Origin: Novosphingobium flavum
GTDB taxonomy: Bacteria; Pseudomonadota; Alphaproteobacteria; Sphingomonadales; Sphingomonadaceae
Assembly: GCF_014230315.1 (NCBI RefSeq)
Contig: NZ_JACLAW010000005.1
Coordinates: forward strand, 1 to 64,000
Length of the DNA: 64,000 nucleotides
Direction: 5' to 3'
Shown here: positions 5,790 through 18,698 of the stretch, piece by piece
How positions within the stretch are numbered: position 1 is the first letter of the stretch
How the letters are laid out: every line of letters begins with the position of its first letter
Position numbers and translations under genes: made by a program
The notes under the pieces: model-generated
What the model saw: only the letters and a program-made list of their open reading frames with translations
Databases searched by the model: none
What the model was told of the DNA's origin: nothing

Positions 5790-6971
5790 TCAATGGAACT
5801 CGTCGAGGCTCCATTTGCTGCGCCATTCGATGTACGGGCGATCGCCGGTGAAGCGGATCGGTAGCCAAACGTATGTGCCGCGCGAGGTGTTGATCTTGCT
5901 GGCCTGGTCCTTGAGCAGTGCGTCCTCCTGCTTTGTAAGTGGCGCACCTGACTGAGCGAACATCTTGCTGAACATTGCCTCGAAGCGCCGGTAGGCATCG
6001 CCGCTGGCGAAGTCGCTGCCTTCGATCCGGGGCAGGTCCGGGATCCACCGGTCCGCCAGCGCAATATACAGGTCTTTCTTGCCCGGATGCTTGAAGACCG
6101 CGCTGACCTGCGAGTTGAACGAGGTGCGGGAGCGATCGCCCGGATGGAGGTCGCCGAGCACGGTCCATGGCCCGTGAAGCGCGTTAGCCATCGCCACTTC
6201 CGACGGATTGGGATGATACCCCGTCGTGCCCGAGGTAATCAGGTAATGTTTGCCGCCGCGCTCGAAATAGGCCGGCCCCTCGCGCACCTGCGGGGGCGCT
6301 GGATGGGGGAAATGGGCGGTGTAGCTGCCGGTCACGTCCGTGTAGTCGGGCGTGAGGTCGGCACAGATCACTTCGCTGTGAACCCGTTCGAAATAGATGA
6401 CGGCCTTGCCGTCGGCCGGTGAAACAACAAGGTCGAAATCCCCAGCGCTCATGCCAAGCGGCAACATGTCCTGGCGAATGATCGTGTAAGGGCCGGTCAT
6501 GCGGTCGGCGGTCAGAACGGTACGGGTCTGGCGTCCATCGGCTTCCATGATCTTGACCCAGCATACGAACTTGCGGGTGACCGGATTGTACAGGATGTGG
6601 GGCCGATCCAGTTGCCGCGAAGGGTGCAAGGGTGACTTGGGGTCGTCGGTGACCGGGGGAATGATCAGTCCCTGATCGGTCCAGTTGACCAGATCGCGCG
6701 ATGCATAGGCCCGGACGCCCCAGTGCCAGATTCCGGAGCCCGGAAGGGTGCGCTCCTTGTTTTCTCCGTACCAGTAGAAGACGTCTCCGACCTGGATGAT
6801 CGAGGCTCCGTGGGCCTGGATCGGCTTTCCCGCCGTATCCCGCCAAACTTGGCCGGGGTGAATGGTGCGCGGACGTCCGCCCGCCAGCAACGGCGATGGG
6901 CCGAGCAAGGTCGCGGCGGCGGCACTGCCGCCGGCAAGTACGGCGCGGCGGGCTAGGCTGCTTTCTCTCAC
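5790..6971 (-). CDS. Family 43-like glycoside hydrolase, Tat-type leader
   Basis: A 393-residue exported protein. It starts at GTG 6971 in a 4-nt GTGA overlap with the tannase stop and opens with SLARRAVLAGGSAAAATLLG, a twin-arginine-like leader. The mature part has five-bladed-propeller GH43 features: HPGQVWRDTAGKPIQAHGAS, GDVFYWYGENKE, YASRDLVNWTDQGLI, and later EGPAYFERGGKHYLITSGTTGY. The AHG segment where most GH43 enzymes carry the catalytic-base Asp resembles, from memory, the exo-beta-1,3-galactanase-type subgroup that lacks that base. A galactan or arabinogalactan side-chain substrate is possible but unproven. It is the last gene of a GH1, tannase, GH43 unit. Confidence 0.8.
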   Translation of the reverse strand: MRESSLARRAVLAGGSAAAATLLGPSPLLAGGRPRTIHPGQVWRDTAGKPIQAHGASIIQVGDVFYWYGENKERTLPGSGIWHWGVRAYASRDLVNWTDQGLIIPPVTDDPKSPLHPSRQLDRPHILYNPVTRKFVCWVKIMEADGRQTRTVLTADRMTGPYTIIRQDMLPLGMSAGDFDLVVSPADGKAVIYFERVHSEVICADLTPDYTDVTGSYTAHFPHPAPPQVREGPAYFERGGKHYLITSGTTGYHPNPSEVAMANALHGPWTVLGDLHPGDRSRTSFNSQVSAVFKHPGKKDLYIALADRWIPDLPRIEGSDFASGDAYRRFEAMFSKMFAQSGAPLTKQEDALLKDQASKINTSRGTYVWLPIRFTGDRPYIEWRSKWSLDEFH

Positions 6972-8620
6972 GAGGTCTTGCCCTTGCTGGCCGCGGCTGG
7001 CGCTGGCGTGGCACAGGCAAAGCTTCCAGCCTGGTCTAGCGGCCCTTTGCCGATATACCGGGCCACTTGGGGATAGGCGCAAATCGGGCGTTCGACGCCG
7101 GGGAAGGCCTTGCCTTTCGCCGTGATCGCGTTGGGTGCATCGCCGTTTTCCACCCACCTGACCAGCGAGGTCAGTGCATCGAAATTGTCGAGCGAGCGGC
7201 CGCCGCCGCAATGCGCCATGCCGGGCACGAGGAACAGCCGTTCGAACAGGCCGGCCTCGCCGCCCTGCGCCTTGGTGTCGGCCGTCAGCCGCTCCTGGTA
7301 GGCGATGAGATCGCTGGCGGAGAAGATCGGATCGGACCACCCGGTCACGATCATCAGTTTGCCGCCGCGCGCGGCAAAGGTGCTGTACTGGGTCGATGTC
7401 GCGTTGGTGTAGGCCGCGGTTTCGGCGCTCGCCGCGAGCAGACGGGCCGCTTCGGCATCGCCGCCGGCCAGCGGGGCCTTGTACTGCGGGTAGGCGAAAT
7501 AGTCCGTCAGCGATTTGCGCACGAGGTTGGGCAGGACCATCATCGGTCCCTGCGGCGTGGGAATTCCGGTCTGCCAGATAAGCCAGTCCGGCATGAAGTT
7601 GGCGGCATCGAAGGTCCACGAGCCGGCGATCGGTTCGCCGGCGGCGTTGACCGGGCCGCGATAAGCCCGAACGATCGCGGCGACCTTGACCGGATCGAGA
7701 CAGCCCGTTTTCGCGCCCTTGGCGCAGGCGAGGGCGCGAACGTCGAACCGGCATGACTGGTGATCGAAGATCATGCCGTCGGCTGCTCCGTCGAGGCCGT
7801 CGCAGGCCTTGAGCAGAGCGGACTGGATCAGCCCGGCATCGGCAGGCGAAAACAGCAGCGAGGAATTGGTCCCCAGCTTGGCGGCGGCATCGGCATAGGC
7901 CCAGCCGGAAAAGTTGGCGAGCACGGCCGCCGCGTTGAGGTGGAATGCCGGGTTGCCGGCGAGCACGCCGTCGAACTCGGCCGGAAAACGCTGGGCCGCG
8001 ATCATCGCCTCGCGCCCACCGTTGGAGCAACCGACGAAATAGCTGTGGTCGGGCGCGCGGCCCTTGACCTTGGCGATCAACTGCTTGGCCGCCTGCGTGA
8101 CCTTGCCGATGGCGGCATAGCCATAGTCCAGCTTCGCCTGCTGGTCGGCGGCAAAGCCGGTGTCGTCGAAGTTGCGGCCCTGGTGCCCGCTATCGGTCGA
8201 AACCACGGCAAAGCCCTGGACAAGCGCCAGCGGCGCGGTGGCGCCATTGGTGATTGGCTTGCCGAGAGCGGGGACGATCATGCCGTCCATCCCGCCGCCA
8301 CCCTGATAGAACAGCCGGCCGTTCCACTGCGCGGGAATGCGCAGCTCCATGCCGATATGATAAGGCTCGCCGCCAGCGCCGGTGCGCTGGTCGATCCGCG
8401 CGGTGATCTGGCAGTGTTCCGGGAGGATGGGCTGGGGGTCGGTCGACTCGCCGTTCGGCCCGGCCGGGCCGCGCGGGGCAGGGCCTTCGGGCACGTCGCG
8501 CGCATCGGTAATCGCCACCGTGCCTTCGTCCGCATTGCGCAGGACCGTGCAGGCTTCGGCGAAAGTTGGGGCTGCGGTGGCTGCCGCGGCGGCGTTGGCG
8601 GCCATTGCCATGAGGATCAT
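6968..8620 (-). CDS. Tannase/feruloyl esterase family protein
   Basis: A 550-residue secreted esterase; the first 17 or so residues (MILMAMAANAAAAATAA) act as a leader. It has the family's CS-D-HC catalytic arrangement: VGCSNGGREAM with C198-S199, GWSDPIFS with D430, and GMAHCGGG with H470-C471. The adjacent cysteines are expected to form the disulfide that brings Ser and His together. Family members hydrolyse gallate, ferulate and other aromatic esters; the exact ester cannot be read from sequence. It lies 24 nt after the GH1 stop and overlaps the GH43 start by 4 nt, so the three are very probably one transcript acting on an acylated plant glycoside. Confidence 0.9.
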   Translation of the reverse strand: MILMAMAANAAAAATAAPTFAEACTVLRNADEGTVAITDARDVPEGPAPRGPAGPNGESTDPQPILPEHCQITARIDQRTGAGGEPYHIGMELRIPAQWNGRLFYQGGGGMDGMIVPALGKPITNGATAPLALVQGFAVVSTDSGHQGRNFDDTGFAADQQAKLDYGYAAIGKVTQAAKQLIAKVKGRAPDHSYFVGCSNGGREAMIAAQRFPAEFDGVLAGNPAFHLNAAAVLANFSGWAYADAAAKLGTNSSLLFSPADAGLIQSALLKACDGLDGAADGMIFDHQSCRFDVRALACAKGAKTGCLDPVKVAAIVRAYRGPVNAAGEPIAGSWTFDAANFMPDWLIWQTGIPTPQGPMMVLPNLVRKSLTDYFAYPQYKAPLAGGDAEAARLLAASAETAAYTNATSTQYSTFAARGGKLMIVTGWSDPIFSASDLIAYQERLTADTKAQGGEAGLFERLFLVPGMAHCGGGRSLDNFDALTSLVRWVENGDAPNAITAKGKAFPGVERPICAYPQVARYIGKGPLDQAGSFACATPAPAAASKGKTS

Positions 8621-8644: not shown

Positions 8645-9949
8645 TTATAGACTGTTGCGCCGGGCGATCGCGCCGAGCACGGCGGCGCTTGGCCTTGGCT
8701 TGCGAACGAAGGTTTCCCGATCGATGGCGGCAAGGCCGTAGTGCGGCTTGTAGCCGAAGGTCCATTCGAAGTTGTCGACCAGCGACCAGTGCAGATAGCC
8801 AAGCACCGGCGTCCCGGCATCTATCCGCCGCTTGAGTTCGGCCAGGGCCGCGGTGATCAGGTCTGATCGCCAGGCGTCGTTGTCGGTGTTGAGCCCGTGT
8901 TCGGTGACCAGGATCGGACATCCGGTCTCGGCGTGGACATAGTCCACTGCGTTGGCGAGCGAGGACGGGTAGATTTCCCAACCTTCGCCGCCCGTGCGCG
9001 CGCCGGCGGGCACGGGCACGATGCCCTTGGCGTCCCAGACGATCCGGCTGTAGTTCTGCACGCCGACGAAGTCGTCGCCGCGAAGGGCGGTCAGCCAAGC
9101 CGCGTAGAAGTCGCGGCGGCGCGCATCGCGCAGGTTGTTCGGGCCAACTCCCTGGAGGTCGACCAGCGCGAGCGAGGCGCCCACCGGCAGGCCTGGCCGC
9201 GCCGCCTTGATCGCTGCCCGGCCTTGCCGGTGCGCGGCGATCAGGTTGGGCTGCATCTCCATGGCGAGACTGATCGGCGCGCCACCGACGAAATGCTCCC
9301 TTCCGGTGGCGCGGGCAGCGGCGGCCAGCATGGCGCGCTCGGCGCCATGGGCCTGCGGCGGGGCCATGTGATAGCCCAGCAAAGTGCCATTGGCTTCGTT
9401 GAGGGTCACGGCATAGGCCATCCCGTCAGCCAGATGCCGCGCGGCGCGGTCGCAATAGCGGGCGAAGAGGGAAGCGCTGTCTGGCGCGGTCCAGCCCCCG
9501 CGCATGGCGAACCAGCGCGGCACCGCCCAATGGCTGAAGGTGACTACCGGGGCGAGGCCGCGCGCGTGGCAGCCCGCGATGATGGCCTTGTAATGGTCGA
9601 GCATCGCCTGCGAGAACAGGCCGGGCTCGGGCTCGATCCGGGACCATTCGATCGAGAAGCGATAGGCGTTGAGGCCGATGGCCCGGGCAAGGTCCAGATC
9701 GGCCGACCACAGCTCGAAACTGTTGTTGGCATCGCCCGAAGGCTCGGTAAACAGCGTCGGCCTGACGTTTTCCAATACCCAATAGTCGCTGTTGGTATCG
9801 TTGCCCTCAATCTGGTGACCGGCCGTGGCGGCGCCCCACAGGAAGCCCGCCGGAAAGGCGGGACTGGCTTTCCCGGCGGCCGCCCGGCCAAAAGCTGGTG
9901 CGGCCAGGCTTGCGGCGGTGCCGGCCACGAAGAACCGTCGATCGATCAC
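8645..9949 (-). CDS. GH1 beta-glucosidase-like enzyme, exported
   Basis: About 434 residues with GH1 features: FPAGFLWGAATAGHQIEG near the mature N-terminus, RFSIEWSRIEP, TLNEANG with the acid/base Glu at about residue 185, and LVTEHGLN with the nucleophile Glu at about 350. The GTG at 9949 is preceded by AGAGGA at good spacing and gives MIDRRFFVAGTAASLAAPAF, a twin-arginine leader. In-frame ATGs further upstream (9973, 10000, 10105) are less well placed. Retaining GH1 enzymes remove terminal beta-linked glucose or related sugars. With the tannase and GH43 downstream, phenolic beta-glycosides are a plausible substrate class. Confidence 0.88.
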   Translation of the reverse strand: MIDRRFFVAGTAASLAAPAFGRAAAGKASPAFPAGFLWGAATAGHQIEGNDTNSDYWVLENVRPTLFTEPSGDANNSFELWSADLDLARAIGLNAYRFSIEWSRIEPEPGLFSQAMLDHYKAIIAGCHARGLAPVVTFSHWAVPRWFAMRGGWTAPDSASLFARYCDRAARHLADGMAYAVTLNEANGTLLGYHMAPPQAHGAERAMLAAAARATGREHFVGGAPISLAMEMQPNLIAAHRQGRAAIKAARPGLPVGASLALVDLQGVGPNNLRDARRRDFYAAWLTALRGDDFVGVQNYSRIVWDAKGIVPVPAGARTGGEGWEIYPSSLANAVDYVHAETGCPILVTEHGLNTDNDAWRSDLITAALAELKRRIDAGTPVLGYLHWSLVDNFEWTFGYKPHYGLAAIDRETFVRKPRPSAAVLGAIARRNSL

Positions 9950-10140: not shown

Positions 10141-11520
10141 CTACCGGCGCGGCACCGCGATCGTGGCGACAAGGCCGCCATCCGGCCTGTTGGCGAGTTG
10201 CACCCGTCCGCCGAAGGTTTCGGCCTGGGCCCGCGCGATGGTCAGGCCTATGCCGGTGCCTCCGGTCTGCCGCGACCGGCTCCCTTCAGCGCGGACGAAA
10301 GGCTTGAATACGTCGCCTAGCAGGTGTTCTGGAATGCCGGGGCCATTATCGCTCACCGCGATTTGCACCTCATCGGCCGTTGTCGTGCAGTCCAGCCTCG
10401 CAGAGCCGCCATAGCGCAAGGCATTATCGACCAGGTTCTGCAGGCAGCGTTGCAGCGCTTCGGGCTTGACCCGGATTTCCAAGGGTTCGACCCGGCCAAG
10501 CGTGATGGAAGGCTGGCCGGCATCGGCCGCGTCCTCGACAACGCTGGCGAGCAGGGATTCCACATCGACAAGCGCCCAGTCATCGGAGGCCTCGCCGGAG
10601 CGCGCCAGCACCAGTCCTTCCGTGACCAGCCGTTGCATCGCCGCAATGTCGGCCACCAGGCGATTGCGCAAGCCTTCTTCGGGCACGAGTTCGAGGCGCA
10701 GGCGCAGCCGGGTCAGTGGGGTCTGGAGGTCGTGCGTGATGGCCGCCAGTATCTGCGTGCGGTCGCGGACCGCGTCACGAATCCGCTGCTGCATGTGGTT
10801 GAAGGCGGCAAAGGTTGTCCGCACGTCGCGGGGGCCGGTCTCGGCTACCGGCGGGGCCTCGATGTCGTTGGCAAAGGCCTGTGCCGCTTTCGTCAGGCGG
10901 CGCATGAAGCCAAGGGTCACCTGCGCCACGAGGAACGAGAGAACCAAGGACGCGGCAGCCACGATCAGGATGAACCCGGGGGACAGGCCGAGGGTCGCCG
11001 GCCGCGGCAAGGCGGCCAGATCAAGGGCAAGAACCAGTTCGGATTCGCCGCCGACCGGCCGCGCGAAGGTCAGGGTGACGATCCAGCATTCGGTATCGGC
11101 GCCAAGATACCCGGCCGCACGCCGGGCAAATGTCGTAACCGGGCGGGCAAGGCATACCTGCGGATCGGTGCTGAATGCACCGGCGCGGACATCTGGTGCG
11201 AAAGCACGCGACAGCGCGGCGCTGACCGCGGGATCGGATTCCCGCACCGGCGCGCGAGAATTTTCGAGAAGGTGCGCGCCCTGCACGCGATTGCCGGCCA
11301 ATTCCGCCCGCGTGCGCTGAGGTGCAACGGTGAGGAGGCCAACAAGCCCCCTGGCGCTCTGGGTGATCCGCTCGGCACGGTAGAGCCGCATCTGATTCTG
11401 GCGATATCGTTCGGCCAAGGTCAGGGAGGTGATGGCTGCCAGCGTGGCGCCGAGCGCGAGAAACAGGGTCATGCGCGTGGCAAGACTATCGAACCGCGCC
11501 CAGAAAGACCGGAGTTTCAT
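10141..11520 (-). CDS. Sensor histidine kinase, EnvZ/CpxA-like
   Basis: About 459 residues: a short cytoplasmic start (MKLRSFWARFDSLATRM), a first membrane helix, a periplasmic domain of roughly 130 residues, a second helix (SPGFILIVAAASLVLSFLVA), HAMP, then an H-box with HDLQTPLTRLR, NLVDNALRYGG, DNGPGIP and GGTGIGLTIARA. It starts at ATG 11520 in an ATGA overlap with the stop of the response regulator, so the pair is translationally coupled. The periplasmic domain has a few Cys residues and no recognised ligand-binding motif. The neighbouring hydrolase operon on the same strand, 190 nt downstream, is a candidate target. Confidence 0.92.
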   Translation of the reverse strand: MKLRSFWARFDSLATRMTLFLALGATLAAITSLTLAERYRQNQMRLYRAERITQSARGLVGLLTVAPQRTRAELAGNRVQGAHLLENSRAPVRESDPAVSAALSRAFAPDVRAGAFSTDPQVCLARPVTTFARRAAGYLGADTECWIVTLTFARPVGGESELVLALDLAALPRPATLGLSPGFILIVAAASLVLSFLVAQVTLGFMRRLTKAAQAFANDIEAPPVAETGPRDVRTTFAAFNHMQQRIRDAVRDRTQILAAITHDLQTPLTRLRLRLELVPEEGLRNRLVADIAAMQRLVTEGLVLARSGEASDDWALVDVESLLASVVEDAADAGQPSITLGRVEPLEIRVKPEALQRCLQNLVDNALRYGGSARLDCTTTADEVQIAVSDNGPGIPEHLLGDVFKPFVRAEGSRSRQTGGTGIGLTIARAQAETFGGRVQLANRPDGGLVATIAVPRR

Positions 11521-12233
11521 ACGTAGGTCACGTCGCAAGCGAGCAGGAAGCCCTTGTTGCGCACGGTGACGATAAGGCCGTCGCCCCCTTCGGCCCTGGC
11601 CAGCTTTGCGCGCAGGCGGGCGATCCGATTGTCGAGCGAGCGATCAAACCACACGGTCTCCTTGCGCTCCGGCAGGAGTTCCTCTCGTCCCAGTTCGAGC
11701 CGTGGCGATTCCAGCAGGCGGCGGAGTATAGCGAATTCGGTAGTTGAGAGGATGACCACGCGTTCATCCGGGCCGCTGAGCCGCCGCCGCGCCAGATCCA
11801 GCCGCCAGGGCCCGAAGCTGGCGAAACGCCCGGTCAACTCGTCGCGGTGCTGGCCCCGGCGCAGCAGGTTGCGAATGCGGGCAATCAATTCCCGAGGCTC
11901 GAACGGTTTGGTGAGATAGTCGTCCGCGCCCCCTTCCAGACCCTCAACCCGGTCGGCCGCGCGGTCCCGCGCGGTCAGCATCATGATGGTGACGCTATAG
12001 CCTTCCGCCCGCAGGTCACGGCAAAACGCCATGCCGTCGCCATCGGCCAGGCTCAGATCCAGCAGCATCACGCGGACGGGGTGGCAATCGAGCGCCGAAC
12101 GCGCCTCGTCCAAGCTCGCGGCCCCGATCGTGGCAAACCCCGCGCGACCCAATTGGGCAGAGAGCAGGTCCCGGATGTCGTCGTCGTCGTCAACGATGAG
12201 GACGAGTTGGTTGGACTGGTCAGGAGGCGTCAT
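11517..12233 (-). CDS. OmpR-family response regulator
   Basis: A 238-residue two-domain regulator. The receiver starts QLVLIVDDDDDIRD, carries the phospho-acceptor D59 in VMLLDLSLADGDG, a conserved Thr in MMLTARDRAADR and the KPFEPRELIARI lysine. The C-terminal OmpR/PhoB winged helix ends in VTVRNKGFLLACDVTYV, where the last strand is slightly atypical (RNKGF rather than RGxGY). The start ATG at 12233 is chosen because the frame above it has no domain homology and the family normally begins within 10-15 residues of the receiver. It overlaps the kinase gene by 4 nt. Confidence 0.92.
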   Translation of the reverse strand: MTPPDQSNQLVLIVDDDDDIRDLLSAQLGRAGFATIGAASLDEARSALDCHPVRVMLLDLSLADGDGMAFCRDLRAEGYSVTIMMLTARDRAADRVEGLEGGADDYLTKPFEPRELIARIRNLLRRGQHRDELTGRFASFGPWRLDLARRRLSGPDERVVILSTTEFAILRRLLESPRLELGREELLPERKETVWFDRSLDNRIARLRAKLARAEGGDGLIVTVRNKGFLLACDVTYV

Positions 12234-12903: not shown

Positions 12904-15900
12904 ATGAACAGGACTTTGGCTTTCGTTCTCTTGGGCGGCGCCAGCTTCGTCGCGGCGGCGCCGGCATTGGCCCAGGCTGGCCCAGCGCCGGTGGATGACG
13001 CGGCGGCTGCCGACATCGTCGTGACCGGATCGCGGGTGGTGCGTAACGGCGACGAGGCACCGACCCCGGTAACCGCGATGCGCACCGACGAACTGCTCAA
13101 GGCCCAGCCGACGACGTTGGCCGACGGGCTCAATGCTCTGCCGGTGTTCACCGGCTCGCGCGGCCCTTCGACGACGACAGTGCAGACGACCGGCAACGGC
13201 AGCGGCGGCAACGGCGCGGCCAACCAGCTCAACTTGCGCGGGCTCGGCTCCAACCGCAACCTCATCCTGCTGGACGGTCAGCGCCTGCCGACCGCGCTCT
13301 ATAACGGCGTGGTCGACGTCGACATCGTGCCAGACATGCTGATGGAGCGGGTCGACGTGGTCACTGGCGGCGTGTCCTCGGTCTATGGCTCCGATGCCAT
13401 TTCGGGCGTGGTCAACTTCGTCACCAATCACCGCTTCAACGGTTTCAAGGCCGAAGCGGATTACGGGATCACCCAGCGCGGCGATGCGCCCAACTGGAAG
13501 GCCAGCGTAGCGGTCGGCACCAAGCTGGGAGACCGGGGCCACATCGAGGCCAGCTTCCAGCACTTCTCGGCCGAGCCGATCTTCCGGGTCGATCGGCCCT
13601 TCGGTTATGACTATGCCTATTCGGGCCTGCTCGCTCCCAATGCGGCGAACGGGATCGGCGCGGCCGGCACGGTGAACAATCCCTATGTGCTGATCTCGGG
13701 CACGCGCACCAGCACGGCGAGCTTCGGCGGGCGCATCACCTCCGGACTCTACAACAACAAGACCTTCAATACCGATGGCGTGCTGACCACGTTCAATGCG
13801 GGCACGCCCACCTACACGACCAGCGCGACGCCATCGGCGCTGTCCATCGGCGGCGACGGGACCTACAACAACGGCACTATCGGTTCGAGCCAGGACAACA
13901 ACCAGGGCTTCGCGCGGCTCGATTACGAGCTGGGCGACAATGTGAACTTCCACGCCCAGGGGATTGTCTCGCTCAAGGACAACGGCGGCTATTCGAGCTA
14001 CGGGCAGGTGAGCGGCTTCACCATCCGGGCCGACAATCCCTACCTGCCGCAGGATGTGCGCACCGCGCTCGCCGCGGCGAACCAGTCCACTTTCACCTTC
14101 GCCAAGGTGTTCCAGAACGCGCCGCGGCTGCGCGACGATGCCCATACCGAGCAGTTCTACGTCAACGGCGGGCTGGACGGGAAATTCGGCCAGTTTGACT
14201 GGGGGCTCGATCTCAACTGGGGCCGTGCCACGCTGCGCAACACGATCAGCGGCAACATGAACAACCAGCACATGGCGGCAGCGGCCGACGCGGTTGACGC
14301 AGGCGCCTTTAACCCGGCGACTGGCCTCCAGACCGGCACCCCCAACGGCAACATCGTGTGCCGGATCAACGTGGACAACATCGCCACCAACAATGATCCG
14401 GGCTGCGTGCCGATCAACATGTTCGGCCCGACCGCGGCGAGCCAGGCGGCCTACAACTACGTGTTCGGCACGACCAACATGTCGTCGCTCAGCCAGAGCT
14501 TCGACATCAACGCCCATGTCGGCGGGGCTCTGTTCGACCTGTTCGGTGCAGGCGACGCGCGCTTCGCCCTCTCGGGCCAGTATCGCACCAATTCGCTGAC
14601 CCAGACGGTGGATGTCAGCTCGTCCGACCTCGCCAACTGTTCGGGCCTGGTCATCAACCCGATCAATACCGCGACCCAGCTGACCTATGCCAGCAACTGC
14701 ATCCCATCGGGCGCGGTCCAGAAGAACTCTAACGGCACGACCCAGCCGCTGACCGCGACCTCGCTGTTCGTCAACGCCTTCTCGCCGCTCAACAAGGTGA
14801 CGCAGAAGGTCAAGGAAGCGGCGCTCGAAGTGCTGGTGCCGGTGCTCAAGGACTCGGCGGTCGCGCGCCAGTTCGACGTCACCGGTGCGGTGCGCTATGC
14901 GGACTACAATACCACGGGCAGCACCTGGGTGTGGAAGGCCGGGGTCAACTGGCAGGTGGTCAACGACCTGCGCATTCGCGGTACGATCTCGCGTGATTTC
15001 CGCGCGCCGACGCTGAACGACCTCTACCAGGCCCCGACGGTGACGATCGCCGCCAACCAGGATCTCCTGACCGGCGCGACCTTCATCAAGGCGCAAACCC
15101 AAGGCAACCCGAACCTCAAGCCGGAAGTCGGCCATACCTGGACGCTGGGCGCGGTGTGGAAACCGTCGTTCGCACCGGGCTTCAGCCTCGCGGTGGACTA
15201 CTATAACATCCGCCTCGAGAACGCGATCCAGTCGGTCAGCGGCTTCTCTCCGGCGATCCAGCAGGCCTGTATCTCCAGCGGCGGAACCTCGCCGTTCTGC
15301 GCCCTGATCCCGCGGCCGGGCCCGATCACCGATACCTCGCTCGGCAACGCGCCGACGATGTGGCTGACCCAGGTGCTCAACTTCGCCGAGATCAAGACGA
15401 ACGGCGTCGATGTCGATGCGGGCTATGCGACGAGCCTGTTCGGCAATCCTCTCCGGCTGCGCGTGCTGGCGACCTACCAGCCGCACTTCATCTATGGCCA
15501 GCAACCCGGCGCGACCGGTACGCCGGTCTCGTTCGACGCGGCCGGGGCTGCCAATGCCAACGGCACGGTTAACGCGATCGCGGCCAAGCTGCGGATCAAT
15601 GCCAGCATCCACGTCGAACCGACCAAGTGGCTGGGCATCGACATCCGCGAGCGGTGGCGCAGCAGCCTGCGCTATGACCCGGTGGACAGCGATTACTTCG
15701 CCCAGCGCGTTCCCGCCGCGGCCTGGACTGACGTTGTCTTCACCGCACGGCTGCCGCAGGATGACCGGTTCGAGATGTTCTTCAACATCCAGAACCTCTT
15801 CGACAAGGACCCCCCGGGTTACCAGGGCGGCACCATTCCGAACGCGGCAATCCTGCCGGGTGACGACTTCCTGGGGCGCCGTTTCGTGATCGGCGCGCGG

Positions 15901-15912
15901 GTGAAGATGTGA
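12904..15912 (+). CDS. TonB-dependent outer-membrane receptor
   Basis: About 1002 residues. The ATG at 12904 lies 6 nt after GGAGAG and starts a signal peptide ending at about ALAQA. The plug begins DIVVTGSRVVRNGDEAPTPV, continues with LNLRGLGSNRNLILLDGQRL, DVVTGGVSSVYGSDAISGVV and a large 22-strand barrel, and ends in an aromatic-poor GARVKM. A TonB box-like ADIVVTG is present, with no STN domain. It is the first gene of a tight four-gene unit (gaps of 22, 43 and 21 nt) with an FGE-fold protein, a dienelactone-hydrolase-like protein and a B3 metallo-beta-lactamase-fold enzyme, suggesting uptake of a substrate these proteins process. It is paralogous to the receptor at 60651 (shared PGPxTDTS barrel segment). 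Confidence 0.93.
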   Translation: MNRTLAFVLLGGASFVAAAPALAQAGPAPVDDAAAADIVVTGSRVVRNGDEAPTPVTAMRTDELLKAQPTTLADGLNALPVFTGSRGPSTTTVQTTGNGSGGNGAANQLNLRGLGSNRNLILLDGQRLPTALYNGVVDVDIVPDMLMERVDVVTGGVSSVYGSDAISGVVNFVTNHRFNGFKAEADYGITQRGDAPNWKASVAVGTKLGDRGHIEASFQHFSAEPIFRVDRPFGYDYAYSGLLAPNAANGIGAAGTVNNPYVLISGTRTSTASFGGRITSGLYNNKTFNTDGVLTTFNAGTPTYTTSATPSALSIGGDGTYNNGTIGSSQDNNQGFARLDYELGDNVNFHAQGIVSLKDNGGYSSYGQVSGFTIRADNPYLPQDVRTALAAANQSTFTFAKVFQNAPRLRDDAHTEQFYVNGGLDGKFGQFDWGLDLNWGRATLRNTISGNMNNQHMAAAADAVDAGAFNPATGLQTGTPNGNIVCRINVDNIATNNDPGCVPINMFGPTAASQAAYNYVFGTTNMSSLSQSFDINAHVGGALFDLFGAGDARFALSGQYRTNSLTQTVDVSSSDLANCSGLVINPINTATQLTYASNCIPSGAVQKNSNGTTQPLTATSLFVNAFSPLNKVTQKVKEAALEVLVPVLKDSAVARQFDVTGAVRYADYNTTGSTWVWKAGVNWQVVNDLRIRGTISRDFRAPTLNDLYQAPTVTIAANQDLLTGATFIKAQTQGNPNLKPEVGHTWTLGAVWKPSFAPGFSLAVDYYNIRLENAIQSVSGFSPAIQQACISSGGTSPFCALIPRPGPITDTSLGNAPTMWLTQVLNFAEIKTNGVDVDAGYATSLFGNPLRLRVLATYQPHFIYGQQPGATGTPVSFDAAGAANANGTVNAIAAKLRINASIHVEPTKWLGIDIRERWRSSLRYDPVDSDYFAQRVPAAAWTDVVFTARLPQDDRFEMFFNIQNLFDKDPPGYQGGTIPNAAILPGDDFLGRRFVIGARVKM

Positions 15913-15934
15913 TCGTCTGTCGGGGAGAATGCCT

Positions 15935-16768
15935 GTGAAAGGACATCTGAAACTGACGGCGGCCCTGGTTGCCGCGATGCTTTCCGGCACGGCGGGGGCG
16001 CAGTCCCCCGCCGCTGCACCGGCTCCGGCTGGTGAGCAGTCCGGTGCCATCGACGGGGTAATCCGCGCCGCGGCCGAGGACATGACGGCAATCCCGGCCG
16101 GGACTTTCGTGATGGGCGATACAACCGGCAAGGGCTTCAATTTCGAGCATCCGGCCCACAAGGTGAGCGTACCGGCCTTCCGGCTGGCCCGCCATGATGT
16201 CACCTTCGCCCAGTATGACGTTTTCGCCCGCGCGACCGGGCGGGCCCTGCCCGAGCAGCGGCCGGGTCTGGACCGGGGTTCCTACCCCGTGGTCAACGTC
16301 AACTGGGTCGATGCCAAGGCCTTCGTCGACTGGCTGAACAAGGTGAGCGGGCGGACTTACCGCCTGCCGAGTGAGGCCGAATGGGAATATGCCGCCCGCG
16401 CCGGATCGACCACGGTCTATCCGTGGGGCGATGAGTTCGACCCGAGCAAGGCCAATTCGTCCGTCGTCGCGCCGGGCGACAAGTGGGGCGCGGCAAGTCC
16501 GGTCGGTTCGTTCCCGCCCAATGCCTTCGGGCTCTACGACATGGTTGGCAATGTCTGGCAGTGGGTCGCAGACTGCAATCACCTCGACTACGAGGGGGCC
16601 CCGACCGACGGCAGCGCCTGGACCACGGGCGACTGCATGTGGCGCAATATTCGCGGTGGTTCGTGGGTTCAGGACCCGCGCGGCCTGCGCGTCTCGCTGC
16701 GCTTGTGGGAAGACCTGCCGCGCCGCCGTTTCCAGTCGATGGGTTTCCGTCTGGCCGAGAGCAACTGA
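15935..16768 (+). CDS. FGE/SUMF1-fold protein lacking the FGE cysteines
   Basis: About 277 residues with a signal peptide ending near TAGAQS. The formylglycine-enzyme fold is clear: IPAGTFVMGD, HKVSVPAFRLARHDVTFAQYD, YPVVNVNWVDAKAFVDWL, YRLPSEAEWEYAARAG, YPWGDEFD, GLYDMVGNVWQWVAD, RNIRGGSWVQDPRG and GFRLAESN. True sulfatase-activating enzymes carry two cysteines right after the GGSW segment; here that stretch has none, so cofactor-free oxidation of sulfatase Cys is not expected. A binding or different catalytic role in the periplasm is more likely. GTG 15935 lies 7 nt after GGGGAG and is preferred to ATG 15929, which is too close. Second gene of the TBDR operon. Confidence 0.85.
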   Translation: MKGHLKLTAALVAAMLSGTAGAQSPAAAPAPAGEQSGAIDGVIRAAAEDMTAIPAGTFVMGDTTGKGFNFEHPAHKVSVPAFRLARHDVTFAQYDVFARATGRALPEQRPGLDRGSYPVVNVNWVDAKAFVDWLNKVSGRTYRLPSEAEWEYAARAGSTTVYPWGDEFDPSKANSSVVAPGDKWGAASPVGSFPPNAFGLYDMVGNVWQWVADCNHLDYEGAPTDGSAWTTGDCMWRNIRGGSWVQDPRGLRVSLRLWEDLPRRRFQSMGFRLAESN

Positions 16769-16811
16769 GGGTCGGCCCGAGGGGCCAGGCTCGATGGACA
16801 AGGAATGATCC

Positions 16812-17801
16812 ATGTCACAGGAAAAGAAGATTCCGGGCCGCACGGCCTCGCGGCGGTTGCCGTTGATCGGCGCGGCCTTGGCGTGCGCCGTGCTGACCCT
16901 GCCGGTTCCGGCCGGGGCGCAGGACGAGGGCGGCGGGCCCGCGCGAGGTAAGGATGGCAAGCCGCTCGTCGGCTATGCCCGCCAGCAGAACGCGCAGAGC
17001 TTCGCCACCGACAAGCTCAAGCGTTCACCGCGCCGCAGCGAGTGGGTCTCGTTCCAGTTCCACGGCAAGACGCTGAAGGGCTGGGCGGTCTATCCGCAGG
17101 TCACGGGCCGCAAGGTGCCGGTCGTGCTGGTCATGCACGAGGTGTTCGGGCTGACCGATTCCACTCGCAACACCGCCGACGCGATCGCCGCGATGGGCTA
17201 TATCGCGATCACCCCGGACTTCCTCTCCGGGGTGGGGCCGAATGGCGGAGGGACCGATTCCTTTCTCGACGAATCCGCCGGGACCAAGCTGGGAATGCGC
17301 GAAGATGCGGAAGTCTATCCCGAGCTGGAAGCCTGGATGGACTATGCCAATCATCTGCCGCAGTCGACCGGCACCAATGCCATCGTCGGTCTGACCTGGG
17401 GCGGGGGCGTGGCCTTCCGCTATGCCGTGGGCCAGCCGCGGCAGGACCTCAAGGCGGTCCTGATCTTCTGTGCGGCGGGGCCGCCGGTCTATAACCAGGG
17501 GCCGATCCACAATCAGAAAGTCATCAACGACTGGCCGGTGCGCAAGACCAATGTGCCCGTCTACGGTTTTTACGGCGAGTATGACATTACCACGGTGACG
17601 CCGGTCTTGCTCAGCGTCGCCGACAGCGAGCGATTGATGAAGGCGGCGGGCAATTTCTACGAACCGGTGATCTATCCCCGGGCCGAACATGCCTTCCTGC
17701 GGGTGGGCGAGGATCCGAAGGATACGAATCCCGGCAATGCGGCGGCCGACAAGGCGGCGCTGGCGCGGATCAAGTCCGTGCTGGCCAAGACCTTCCGGTG
17801 A
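16812..17801 (+). CDS. Dienelactone-hydrolase-like alpha/beta hydrolase with Thr at the nucleophile position
   Basis: A 329-residue exported alpha/beta-hydrolase-fold protein (leader ending about PAGAQD). It has the dienelactone hydrolase layout VVLVMHEVFGL (E110), AITPDFLSG, the nucleophile elbow IVGLTWGGGVAF, YGEYD (D258) and RAEHAF (H293). In dienelactone hydrolases the elbow reads G-x-C-x-G-G; here the Cys is Thr195, encoded ACC. Glu, Asp and His partners remain, so the protein is either inactive, uses Thr, or has another role. It sits 43 nt after the FGE-fold gene and 21 nt before the metallo-beta-lactamase-fold gene, and is probably cotranscribed with both. Confidence 0.85.
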   Translation: MSQEKKIPGRTASRRLPLIGAALACAVLTLPVPAGAQDEGGGPARGKDGKPLVGYARQQNAQSFATDKLKRSPRRSEWVSFQFHGKTLKGWAVYPQVTGRKVPVVLVMHEVFGLTDSTRNTADAIAAMGYIAITPDFLSGVGPNGGGTDSFLDESAGTKLGMREDAEVYPELEAWMDYANHLPQSTGTNAIVGLTWGGGVAFRYAVGQPRQDLKAVLIFCAAGPPVYNQGPIHNQKVINDWPVRKTNVPVYGFYGEYDITTVTPVLLSVADSERLMKAAGNFYEPVIYPRAEHAFLRVGEDPKDTNPGNAAADKAALARIKSVLAKTFR

Positions 17802-17822
17802 GTGCGCGATTGGAGATTGGAT

Positions 17823-18698
17823 ATGAATAGCAGAAGGATGCTCAAGGCTCTTGCTGGATTGCTTGTGCTGTCCGCACCGGGCCTGCAAGCCGCCACCACG
17901 CAGACCGATCCGCAGCTTGCCCCGTTCCGCATCGCGGGGGATCTCTACTACGTGGGTAGCCTGCACGGGGCGTTTCTGGTGAAGACGCCCAAGGGGCTGA
18001 TCCTGATCAACAGCAATTATCCGGATTCGCCGCCGCTGATCCGCCAGAGCGTGGAAAAGCTCGGGTTCAAGTGGGAGGACATCAAGATCCTGCTGATTTC
18101 CCATTCGCACATCGACCATGCCGGCGGCAGCGCGCAGATCGTCAAGGAAACCGGCGCCCGCTACATGGTGATGGACGGGGACGTGGACGTGGTGGAATCA
18201 GGCGGGAAGGCCGATCCCAATTATGGTGGCGAGGGCGGGCAGACCTATCCCGCCGCCCATGTAGACCGGGTTATCCATGACGGGGACAAGGTGGAACTGG
18301 GCGGCGTGACGCTGACCGCGCACCTGACCGCCGGGCACACCAAGGGCACGACCACCTGGACCTTCGACGGGCGCAGTGGCGGGAAGCTGCTGCATGTCGT
18401 GGTGATCGGCGGATCGACCCTCAACAAGAATGCACCGCTGGTCGGAAACGCAAAATATCCTCAAATCGCAGAGGATTACCGCAAGGGCTTCGCAGTGGTT
18501 CGCAGCTTGCCCTGCGACGTTCCGCTGGGGGCGCACGACTGGTACTTCGACCTGCAAGACAAGTACAAGCGCGTCACGGCGGGCGACACTGCCGCTTTCG
18601 TCGATCCGCAAGGATGTACCCGCTTCATGGACAAGGCCGAGGCGGCCTTTGCGAAGCAATACAACGTGGAGTTGGCGAAGGAGGGCGCCCCGAAATAA
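17823..18698 (+). CDS. Subclass B3 metallo-beta-lactamase-fold hydrolase
   Basis: A 291-residue protein with a signal peptide (about residues 1-24). Zinc ligands of subclass B3 are present in order: HSHIDH (H94, H96, D98, H99), GHTKG (H172) and GAHDWYF (H238). The segment HGAFLVKTPKGLILINSN before the site is typical of B3 enzymes, and the SGGKLLHVVVIGG strand is also conserved. B3 enzymes hydrolyse beta-lactams, but environmental members in sphingomonads may have other primary substrates, and the catabolic operon context favours a lactone- or amide-type substrate. ATG 17823 has GGAG 7 nt upstream. It is the last gene of the TBDR operon. Confidence 0.88.
   Translation: MNSRRMLKALAGLLVLSAPGLQAATTQTDPQLAPFRIAGDLYYVGSLHGAFLVKTPKGLILINSNYPDSPPLIRQSVEKLGFKWEDIKILLISHSHIDHAGGSAQIVKETGARYMVMDGDVDVVESGGKADPNYGGEGGQTYPAAHVDRVIHDGDKVELGGVTLTAHLTAGHTKGTTTWTFDGRSGGKLLHVVVIGGSTLNKNAPLVGNAKYPQIAEDYRKGFAVVRSLPCDVPLGAHDWYFDLQDKYKRVTAGDTAAFVDPQGCTRFMDKAEAAFAKQYNVELAKEGAPK

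Follow-up and report, generated by a model that had tools for sequence, protein, structure and literature searches.

In classical dienelactone hydrolase (DLH), the catalytic residues given in PMC4108320 are Cys123, His202 and Asp171, together with Glu36, and several C123S structures of dienelactone hydrolase have been deposited in the PDB. PvdO, the dihydropyoverdine dehydrogenase of Pseudomonas, is described in PMC6206403 as oxidising dihydropyoverdine, an aromatic ring system, in the periplasm. MIM-1 of Novosphingobium pentaromativorans is, according to PMC7392888, a subclass B3 enzyme that acts both as a beta-lactamase and as an efficient lactonase, potent on homoserine lactones. Here we analyzed a putative four-gene operon (positions 12904 to 18698) in which relatives of these proteins are encoded behind a TonB-dependent receptor; it lies in a 64,000-nucleotide stretch of the Novosphingobium flavum genome (contig NZ_JACLAW010000005.1), hereafter called the window. 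The four products may serve the uptake and hydrolysis of a plant aromatic, and the most interesting element is a group of DLH-fold proteins without the nucleophilic Cys, to which the window protein belongs, rather than the four-gene set itself.

All four genes lie on the + strand. The first (12904..15912) encodes the TonB-dependent receptor with plug and barrel, the second (15935..16768) a PvdO-type FGE-fold protein without the FGE cysteines, the third (16812..17801) a DLH-fold protein, probably exported, with Thr195 at the nucleophile position, and the fourth (17823..18698) a subclass B3 metallohydrolase of the FEZ type with intact zinc ligands. The intergenic gaps are 22, 43 and 21 nt, the first being 16 nt if the FGE-fold gene, called from a GTG start, begins at an in-frame ATG at 15929, and purine-rich stretches resembling ribosome sites (GGAG/AAGGA-like) are present ahead of all four genes. 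The N-termini of all four products, read by eye, look like signal peptides. The initial annotation of the window had reported this gene order with the same coordinates and gaps, the missing FGE cysteines, the Thr nucleophile and the intact B3 enzyme, and each of these was borne out by the open reading frames and the analyses below. A pseudogene or sequencing error was considered and rejected, as all four frames are open and the Thr codon lies inside a conserved motif, though the codon may still reflect a single-base sequencing error in a Ser codon.

The DLH-fold protein belongs to the DLH family by Pfam (PF01738, 90.6 bits; cut-off 21). A structural model (mean pLDDT 78.6), which the initial annotation had proposed as a check, gave a predicted fold that matches solved DLH-family chains at Z 22-27, with 4zv9, an uncharacterised Escherichia coli DLH-family protein, at the top (Z 26.8, 233 residues, root-mean-square deviation 3.0) and classical DLH 1din also closely matched (Z 23.1, 220 residues, deviation 3.0). 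4zv9 is likewise the top solved match by sequence (E 7.9e-14), but it has Cys at the nucleophile position (GFCYGGG). With classical DLH the window protein shares the fold and the Glu, Asp and His positions (equivalents Glu110, Asp258 and His293 in the motif table), whereas it differs from the G-x-C-x-G-G motif by a Thr (codon ACC) for Cys, and also by its signal-like start. The sole NCBIfam model matching it is the YghX family hydrolase NF041440 (58.8 bits, residues 77-297), and this score is far under the model cut-off of 460 bits.

Among 51 distinct homologues, the nucleophile position is occupied by Cys in 38, Ser in 8 and Ala in 4, and by Thr in the window protein only, while the Asp is kept in all 51 and the His in 50, the sole exception being a cut-off sequence. 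The 13 non-Cys rows cluster in the tree (96/91); Cys was found in 38 of the 38 rows outside this clade and in none of the 13 inside, the tree being midpoint-rooted and the clade thus amounting to a supported split plus that root. It divides into branch A, nine rows with Ser in eight plus the window Thr (100/97), and branch B, in which all four rows carry Ala (100/100) and keep the Glu, Asp and His. Because the eight other rows of branch A carry Ser, the Thr appears to be a Ser-to-Thr step, and it most simply would have arisen within the Ser branch, not through loss of a working Cys. The loss of Cys would, again most simply, be ancestral to the 13-row group as placed by the midpoint root. In the motif table the window gene is present twice (window and L081) and was counted once, and duplicate loci (L001, L002, L023, L031-L035, L038, L068, L094-L096) were dropped. 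Also left out were the Acidipila locus L048, where the match is in pieces, and loci with a frame <150 aa or a blastp E >1e-5, including L013, L063, L065, L066 and L067.

The non-Cys group is rare. Strong DLH matches were found in 2 of 98 relatives (E 1e-40) and in 2 of 397 family genomes (E 1e-20), the N. flavum genome being counted in each, and a class search with the DLH alignment gave only this genome among 385 at E 1e-40, with no member elsewhere; in the family-genome and class searches the first five candidates per genome were scored, so weaker second copies may be missed. Two short peptide patterns, run against species genomes, yielded 31 loci, seven of which (L037-L043) belong to branch A at 45-50% identity. 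N. flavum itself holds three further non-Cys members, one of branch A and one of branch B on contig C24 and one of branch B on contig C11. The branch B members are L021:6953-7894, L022:8990-9967, L036:7655-8608 and L039:8795-9718, and all but one of them have a branch A gene at a distance of less than 10 kb. In the tree the window protein is sister to the DLH of Streptomyces fuscichromogenes (99/94), and a closest relative in an actinomycete suggests horizontal transfer. In this S. fuscichromogenes locus (L037:9785-12781) the DLH gene adjoins an esterase-like gene of the BD-FAE type.

The FGE-fold protein has an FGE-sulfatase domain (PF03781, 192 bits; cut-off 23.3), and its best PDB match is PvdO (5hha, E 4.3e-42), behind which ToxD and FGEs rank. 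The FGE active-site pair CxxxxC is missing in it and present in both other FGE-fold proteins of the genome, which served as a positive control. Nine further Sphingomonadaceae genomes each contributed one homologue to an alignment with it (loci L084-L092, with L093 and G420 left out); the FGE cysteines are missing in all ten, and another pair, Cys216/Cys236, is common to all ten and to PvdO 5hha. For these reasons the window protein looks, by sequence, like a PvdO-type protein rather than a decayed FGE, and not like PvdO itself. It shares with PvdO the absence of the FGE cysteines, the Cys216/Cys236 positions and a DC-H-Y-GAP-DGSAW stretch, and its start, signal-like by eye, would suit the periplasmic location of PvdO, but it scores 177.8 bits against a cut-off of 500 for NCBIfam PvdO (NF051459) and no pyoverdine genes adjoin it by eye. 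The initial annotation had regarded this protein and the DLH-like one as degenerate enzymes, a description that suits neither a PvdO-type protein nor a DLH whose branch has Ser in the other eight rows. By analogy with the periplasmic reaction of PvdO on dihydropyoverdine, the protein may plausibly oxidise or tailor an aromatic ring. A sulfatase-activating FGE was considered for this gene and rejected, as the cysteines are missing and the two CxxxxC FGEs of the genome lie elsewhere, one of them (L029) in a run of genes that look sulfatase-like by eye. A structure model of the FGE-fold protein was not used (mean pLDDT 41.1, two-row alignment).

PvdO-type matches at E 1e-45 or better occur in 12 of 397 sampled family genomes, N. 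flavum included (the first six candidates per genome were scored, and weaker second copies may be missed). In ten stretches around such homologues, from 10 of the 11 other matching genomes, tblastn at E 1e-4 detected neither the DLH nor the B3 protein of the window, and the window receptor gave one weak hit, in L091. Four of these loci from other Sphingomonadaceae genera (L084-L087) have in common a cluster of the PvdO-type protein, two Rieske oxygenases of the vanillate-demethylase type, a pyrroloquinoline quinone (PQQ) dehydrogenase, a cytochrome c and MFS genes, to which L086 and L087 add a receptor gene; five L084 genes and the L087 receptor were assigned by Pfam and the remainder by eye. 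This cluster, from which the neighbours in L088-L093 differ, may suit the study of the PvdO-type protein better than the window operon.

The B3 protein matches Lactamase_B (49.9 bits; cut-off 22.7) and exceeds the cut-off of the subclass B3 model NF033105 (287.6 bits over 240). The HSHIDH motif, the His of AGHTKG and the His of GAHDW, which correspond to the B3 zinc ligands (HxHxDH, His196 and His263), are present in the alignment. Its best PDB match and best solved relative is FEZ-1 (1l9y, E 2.5e-77), with which all zinc ligands align, but its FEZ score of 263.5 bits stays well short of that model's cut-off (600), and it differs from FEZ-1 in lying inside a receptor operon. Four genes of the genome exceed the B3 cut-off. 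Three are FEZ-type, namely the window gene (contig C22), a 73% identical paralogue on C25 and a 53% identical one on C21, and the fourth, also on C25, is MIM-like (291.6 bits against a MIM cut-off of 640). MIM-1 and the window protein share subclass B3, but the counterpart of MIM-1 in N. flavum is this second C25 gene, whose product is 29% identical to the window B3. Since MIM-1 is a lactonase, lactone cleavage by a B3 enzyme has a precedent in Novosphingobium. When 147 further relatives were searched with the window B3 at E 1e-60, none had a match. On contig C23 (L028:5258-8091) a tannase-family gene stands directly beside a B3-like metallohydrolase gene on the same strand, the latter scoring 125.7 bits, under the B3 cut-off of 240; the genome thereby has a second site where tannase and metallohydrolase genes are neighbours.

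Both Pfam domains of the receptor exceed their cut-offs (plug PF07715, 61.1 bits; barrel PF00593, 93.3 bits), and it matches models of siderophore, heme and B12 receptors only partially and far under their cut-offs (for example, 97 against 316.85 bits). The receptor search scored the first two candidates per genome, and weaker second copies may be missed. Its closest relatives are a paralogue on contig C11 (65%) and a receptor in N. umbonatum (64.6%). The N. umbonatum receptor gene lies 1.8 kb from the DLH gene of that genome, with a carboxylesterase (COesterase) gene 54 nt downstream. One of 46% identity in genome G321 is followed by a protein without Pfam match and then by a carboxylesterase (COesterase, second gene downstream), and one of 36% identity on a Blastomonas plasmid by an alpha/beta hydrolase, BglX, an MFS gene and a ring-hydroxylating dioxygenase. 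Receptors of about 33% identity on contig C24 and in Sphingobium boeckii lie near branch A and branch B DLH genes. Overall, an alpha/beta-hydrolase-fold gene was found within about 3 kb in six of seven receptor loci (window, C24, S. boeckii, N. umbonatum, G321 and Blastomonas), the exception being C11.

Two loci also pair DLH with a metallohydrolase. In S. boeckii a B3-like metallohydrolase gene is followed by the DLH gene 20 nt downstream, and in N. umbonatum one lies about 5 kb from the DLH gene with the receptor gene between them. A cluster of lactonase beta-propeller proteins and a cluster of RraA-like proteins are each near the DLH family in three loci (one member of each was assigned by Pfam). 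The FGE-fold query matched only one of the DLH loci, L067, at more than 4 kb from a weak 62-residue DLH match. In open-licence papers we found none joining B3, dienelactone hydrolase and TonB receptor, with or without Novosphingobium, the FGE family being outside this query, and likewise none joining tannase, TonB receptor and Novosphingobium, or FGE, ToxD and toxoflavin.

We propose tentatively, giving it a somewhat less than even chance, that the four genes are a catabolic operon for the uptake of a plant aromatic with an ester or lactone group and its hydrolysis in the periplasm, beside a divergent set of two-component, GH1, tannase and GH43 genes. None of the four products would act in the cytoplasm, their place being the inner membrane or beyond it. 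The receptor would import an aromatic natural product bearing an ester, a lactone and probably a sugar; the periplasmic DLH-fold protein, with a hydroxyl nucleophile for Cys, and the zinc-dependent B3-type enzyme would cut ester or lactone bonds; the PvdO-type protein would oxidise or otherwise tailor the aromatic part; and the divergent two-component system with the GH1, tannase and GH43 genes would serve the same substrate class. The tight same-strand spacing suggests co-transcription and the signal-like N-termini point to export, and the proposal draws further support from the hydrolase genes near relatives of the receptor, the DLH-metallohydrolase pairing and the glycosidase and tannase neighbours. 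The lactonase and RraA-like genes near the DLH family, the oxygenase and dehydrogenase genes around some PvdO-type homologues, the periplasmic action of PvdO and the lactonase activity of MIM-1 also speak for it. The contexts of the DLH loci are mixed, with ester-, lactone- and glycoside-bearing aromatics as the theme in common, and this theme is the basis of the proposed substrate class. Uptake and zinc-dependent cleavage of a natural product had already been put forward in the initial annotation, and they stand in part: spacing, signal-like starts, the S. boeckii pairing and the receptor-hydrolase loci speak for them. Conserved co-occurrence of the four families, which had been set as a test of that idea, was not seen in any genome searched.

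Several observations weigh against one pathway for the four products. No locus read outside N. flavum holds the four families together, in sampled genomes and with no single search for all four, and as far as searched the foursome is private to its own genome; relatives of the single parts do occur in other places, in receptor-hydrolase and hydrolase-metallohydrolase settings. With 130.3 bits in S. boeckii and 123 bits in N. umbonatum, the two metallohydrolases stay below the B3 cut-off (240), and their identity to the window B3 is 28-30%; because of this they are to be called B3-like, not the same enzyme. The contig C11 receptor paralogue, 65% identical, has no adjoining hydrolase gene. Four of the seven receptor loci (those of the window, C24, S. 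boeckii and N. umbonatum) had been chosen through DLH; only the three found through the receptor (C11, G321 and Blastomonas) give an unbiased test, and two of them fit the hydrolase pattern. With 98 PF00593 hits over 4.1 Mb, any gene of the genome has a receptor within 5 kb with a probability of roughly one in four, and a nearby tannase is not rare by chance either, as PF07519 has 10 hits in about nine genes. A sigma-70-type scan gave no promoter-like match upstream of the receptor, the consensus promoter and terminator scan in general being close to shuffled sequence (1 vs 1.1 and 6 vs 5.3). A Thr at the nucleophile position of an alpha/beta hydrolase may be inactive, and purified PvdO is described in PMC6206403 as inactive and without detectable cofactor. 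Much of this would be expected if the four genes came together by chance or recent assembly, without sharing a pathway, in a genome rich in receptors and paralogues. Paralogues of the receptor (C11), the DLH (48%, C24) and the B3 (C25) within the genome fit such an origin, but four same-strand genes at 16-43 nt gaps, and DLH-metallohydrolase and receptor-hydrolase pairings in other genera, do not, and we consider it rather doubtful.

Three other functions can be considered for the operon, each of them improbable in our view. In foreign-siderophore use, the receptor would take up an iron chelate, the hydrolases would open an ester or lactone siderophore and the PvdO-type protein would act on a catechol-like group. 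The FGE-fold protein indeed matches PvdO best in both the PDB and NCBIfam, and the receptor partially matches siderophore, heme and B12 models, but those receptor scores are all far under cut-off, the operon has GH1, tannase and GH43 genes for neighbours, and genes for iron or for siderophore synthesis were not seen next to it by eye; we thus see little chance for this function. Were the B3 protein a true beta-lactamase and the operon one for resistance to, or use of, a beta-lactam drug, the curated equivalog score and intact ligands would be explained; that the gene closes a receptor operon in which neither of its two partners is a lactamase, that three of the four over-cut-off B3 genes lie elsewhere in the genome and that none of 72,556 plasmid records matches the query at E 1e-40 make this very unlikely. 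A resistance cassette on a mobile element was likewise rejected, given the same plasmid result and no tRNA gene within the 64-kb window, mobile-element genes not having been searched for; the view of the initial annotation that the locus is unlike such a cassette agrees with the receptor-operon context, the signal-like N-termini and the glycosidase and tannase neighbours. The activity of MIM-1 on homoserine lactones, as given in PMC7392888, would favour import and destruction of acyl-homoserine lactones or other lactone signals, but such quenching would leave the PvdO-type gene and the glycosidase and tannase neighbours unexplained, and the window B3 is FEZ-type and 29% identical to the MIM-like paralogue, so it too has a low probability.

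Returning to hydrolysis of a plant aromatic, a wider proposal, which we regard as unlikely as a whole, is that the small, exported non-Cys DLH clade consists of Ser (here Thr) hydrolases and of an Ala sister branch that probably performs non-hydrolytic chemistry or binds product, and that together with receptors, B3 enzymes and PvdO-type proteins it would make up a pathway not yet described, acting in the periplasm on plant phenolics with lactone or ester groups and using a 'beta-lactamase' as a catabolic lactonase. If true, it would give B3 'beta-lactamases' of environmental bacteria a natural setting as catabolic enzymes, laboratory Cys-to-Ser dienelactone hydrolases a natural counterpart and the poorly understood PvdO-type proteins a place where they can be tested. 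If wrong, the locus would still be a clean case of two seemingly broken enzymes being members of non-classical subfamilies.

Divergent from the operon, on the - strand, are a response regulator (11517..12233), possibly the regulator of the locus, and its paired sensor histidine kinase (10141..11520), both assigned by eye from their translations. They are followed by a GH1-family gene of the beta-glucosidase type (8645..9949, PF00232, 180.1 bits), a tannase/feruloyl esterase family gene (6968..8620, PF07519, 378.8 bits) and a GH43-family gene (5790..6971, PF04616, 55.7 bits), all on the same - strand. The tannase-family gene is 8 kb from the window DLH gene, and in Acidipila, where the DLH is frame-broken, the distance between the two families is about 4 kb. 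Gene calls in the fetched loci come from a codon-usage script, not a standard gene finder, and neighbours without a Pfam run (response regulator, histidine kinase, xanthine-dehydrogenase-type, most MFS and some lactonase and RraA-like members) were named by eye. Other DLH-family loci hold GH3 (Novosphingobium SG751A), tannase (Acidipila) and BD-FAE-type esterase (Streptomyces) genes, and further lactonase, RraA-like, old yellow enzyme (OYE) and, by eye, xanthine-dehydrogenase-type genes. A family without Pfam match at E 0.001 and with signal-like starts recurs near branch A DLH genes, at L036:18658-19413 in S. boeckii and at L043:9086-9928 in Duganella.

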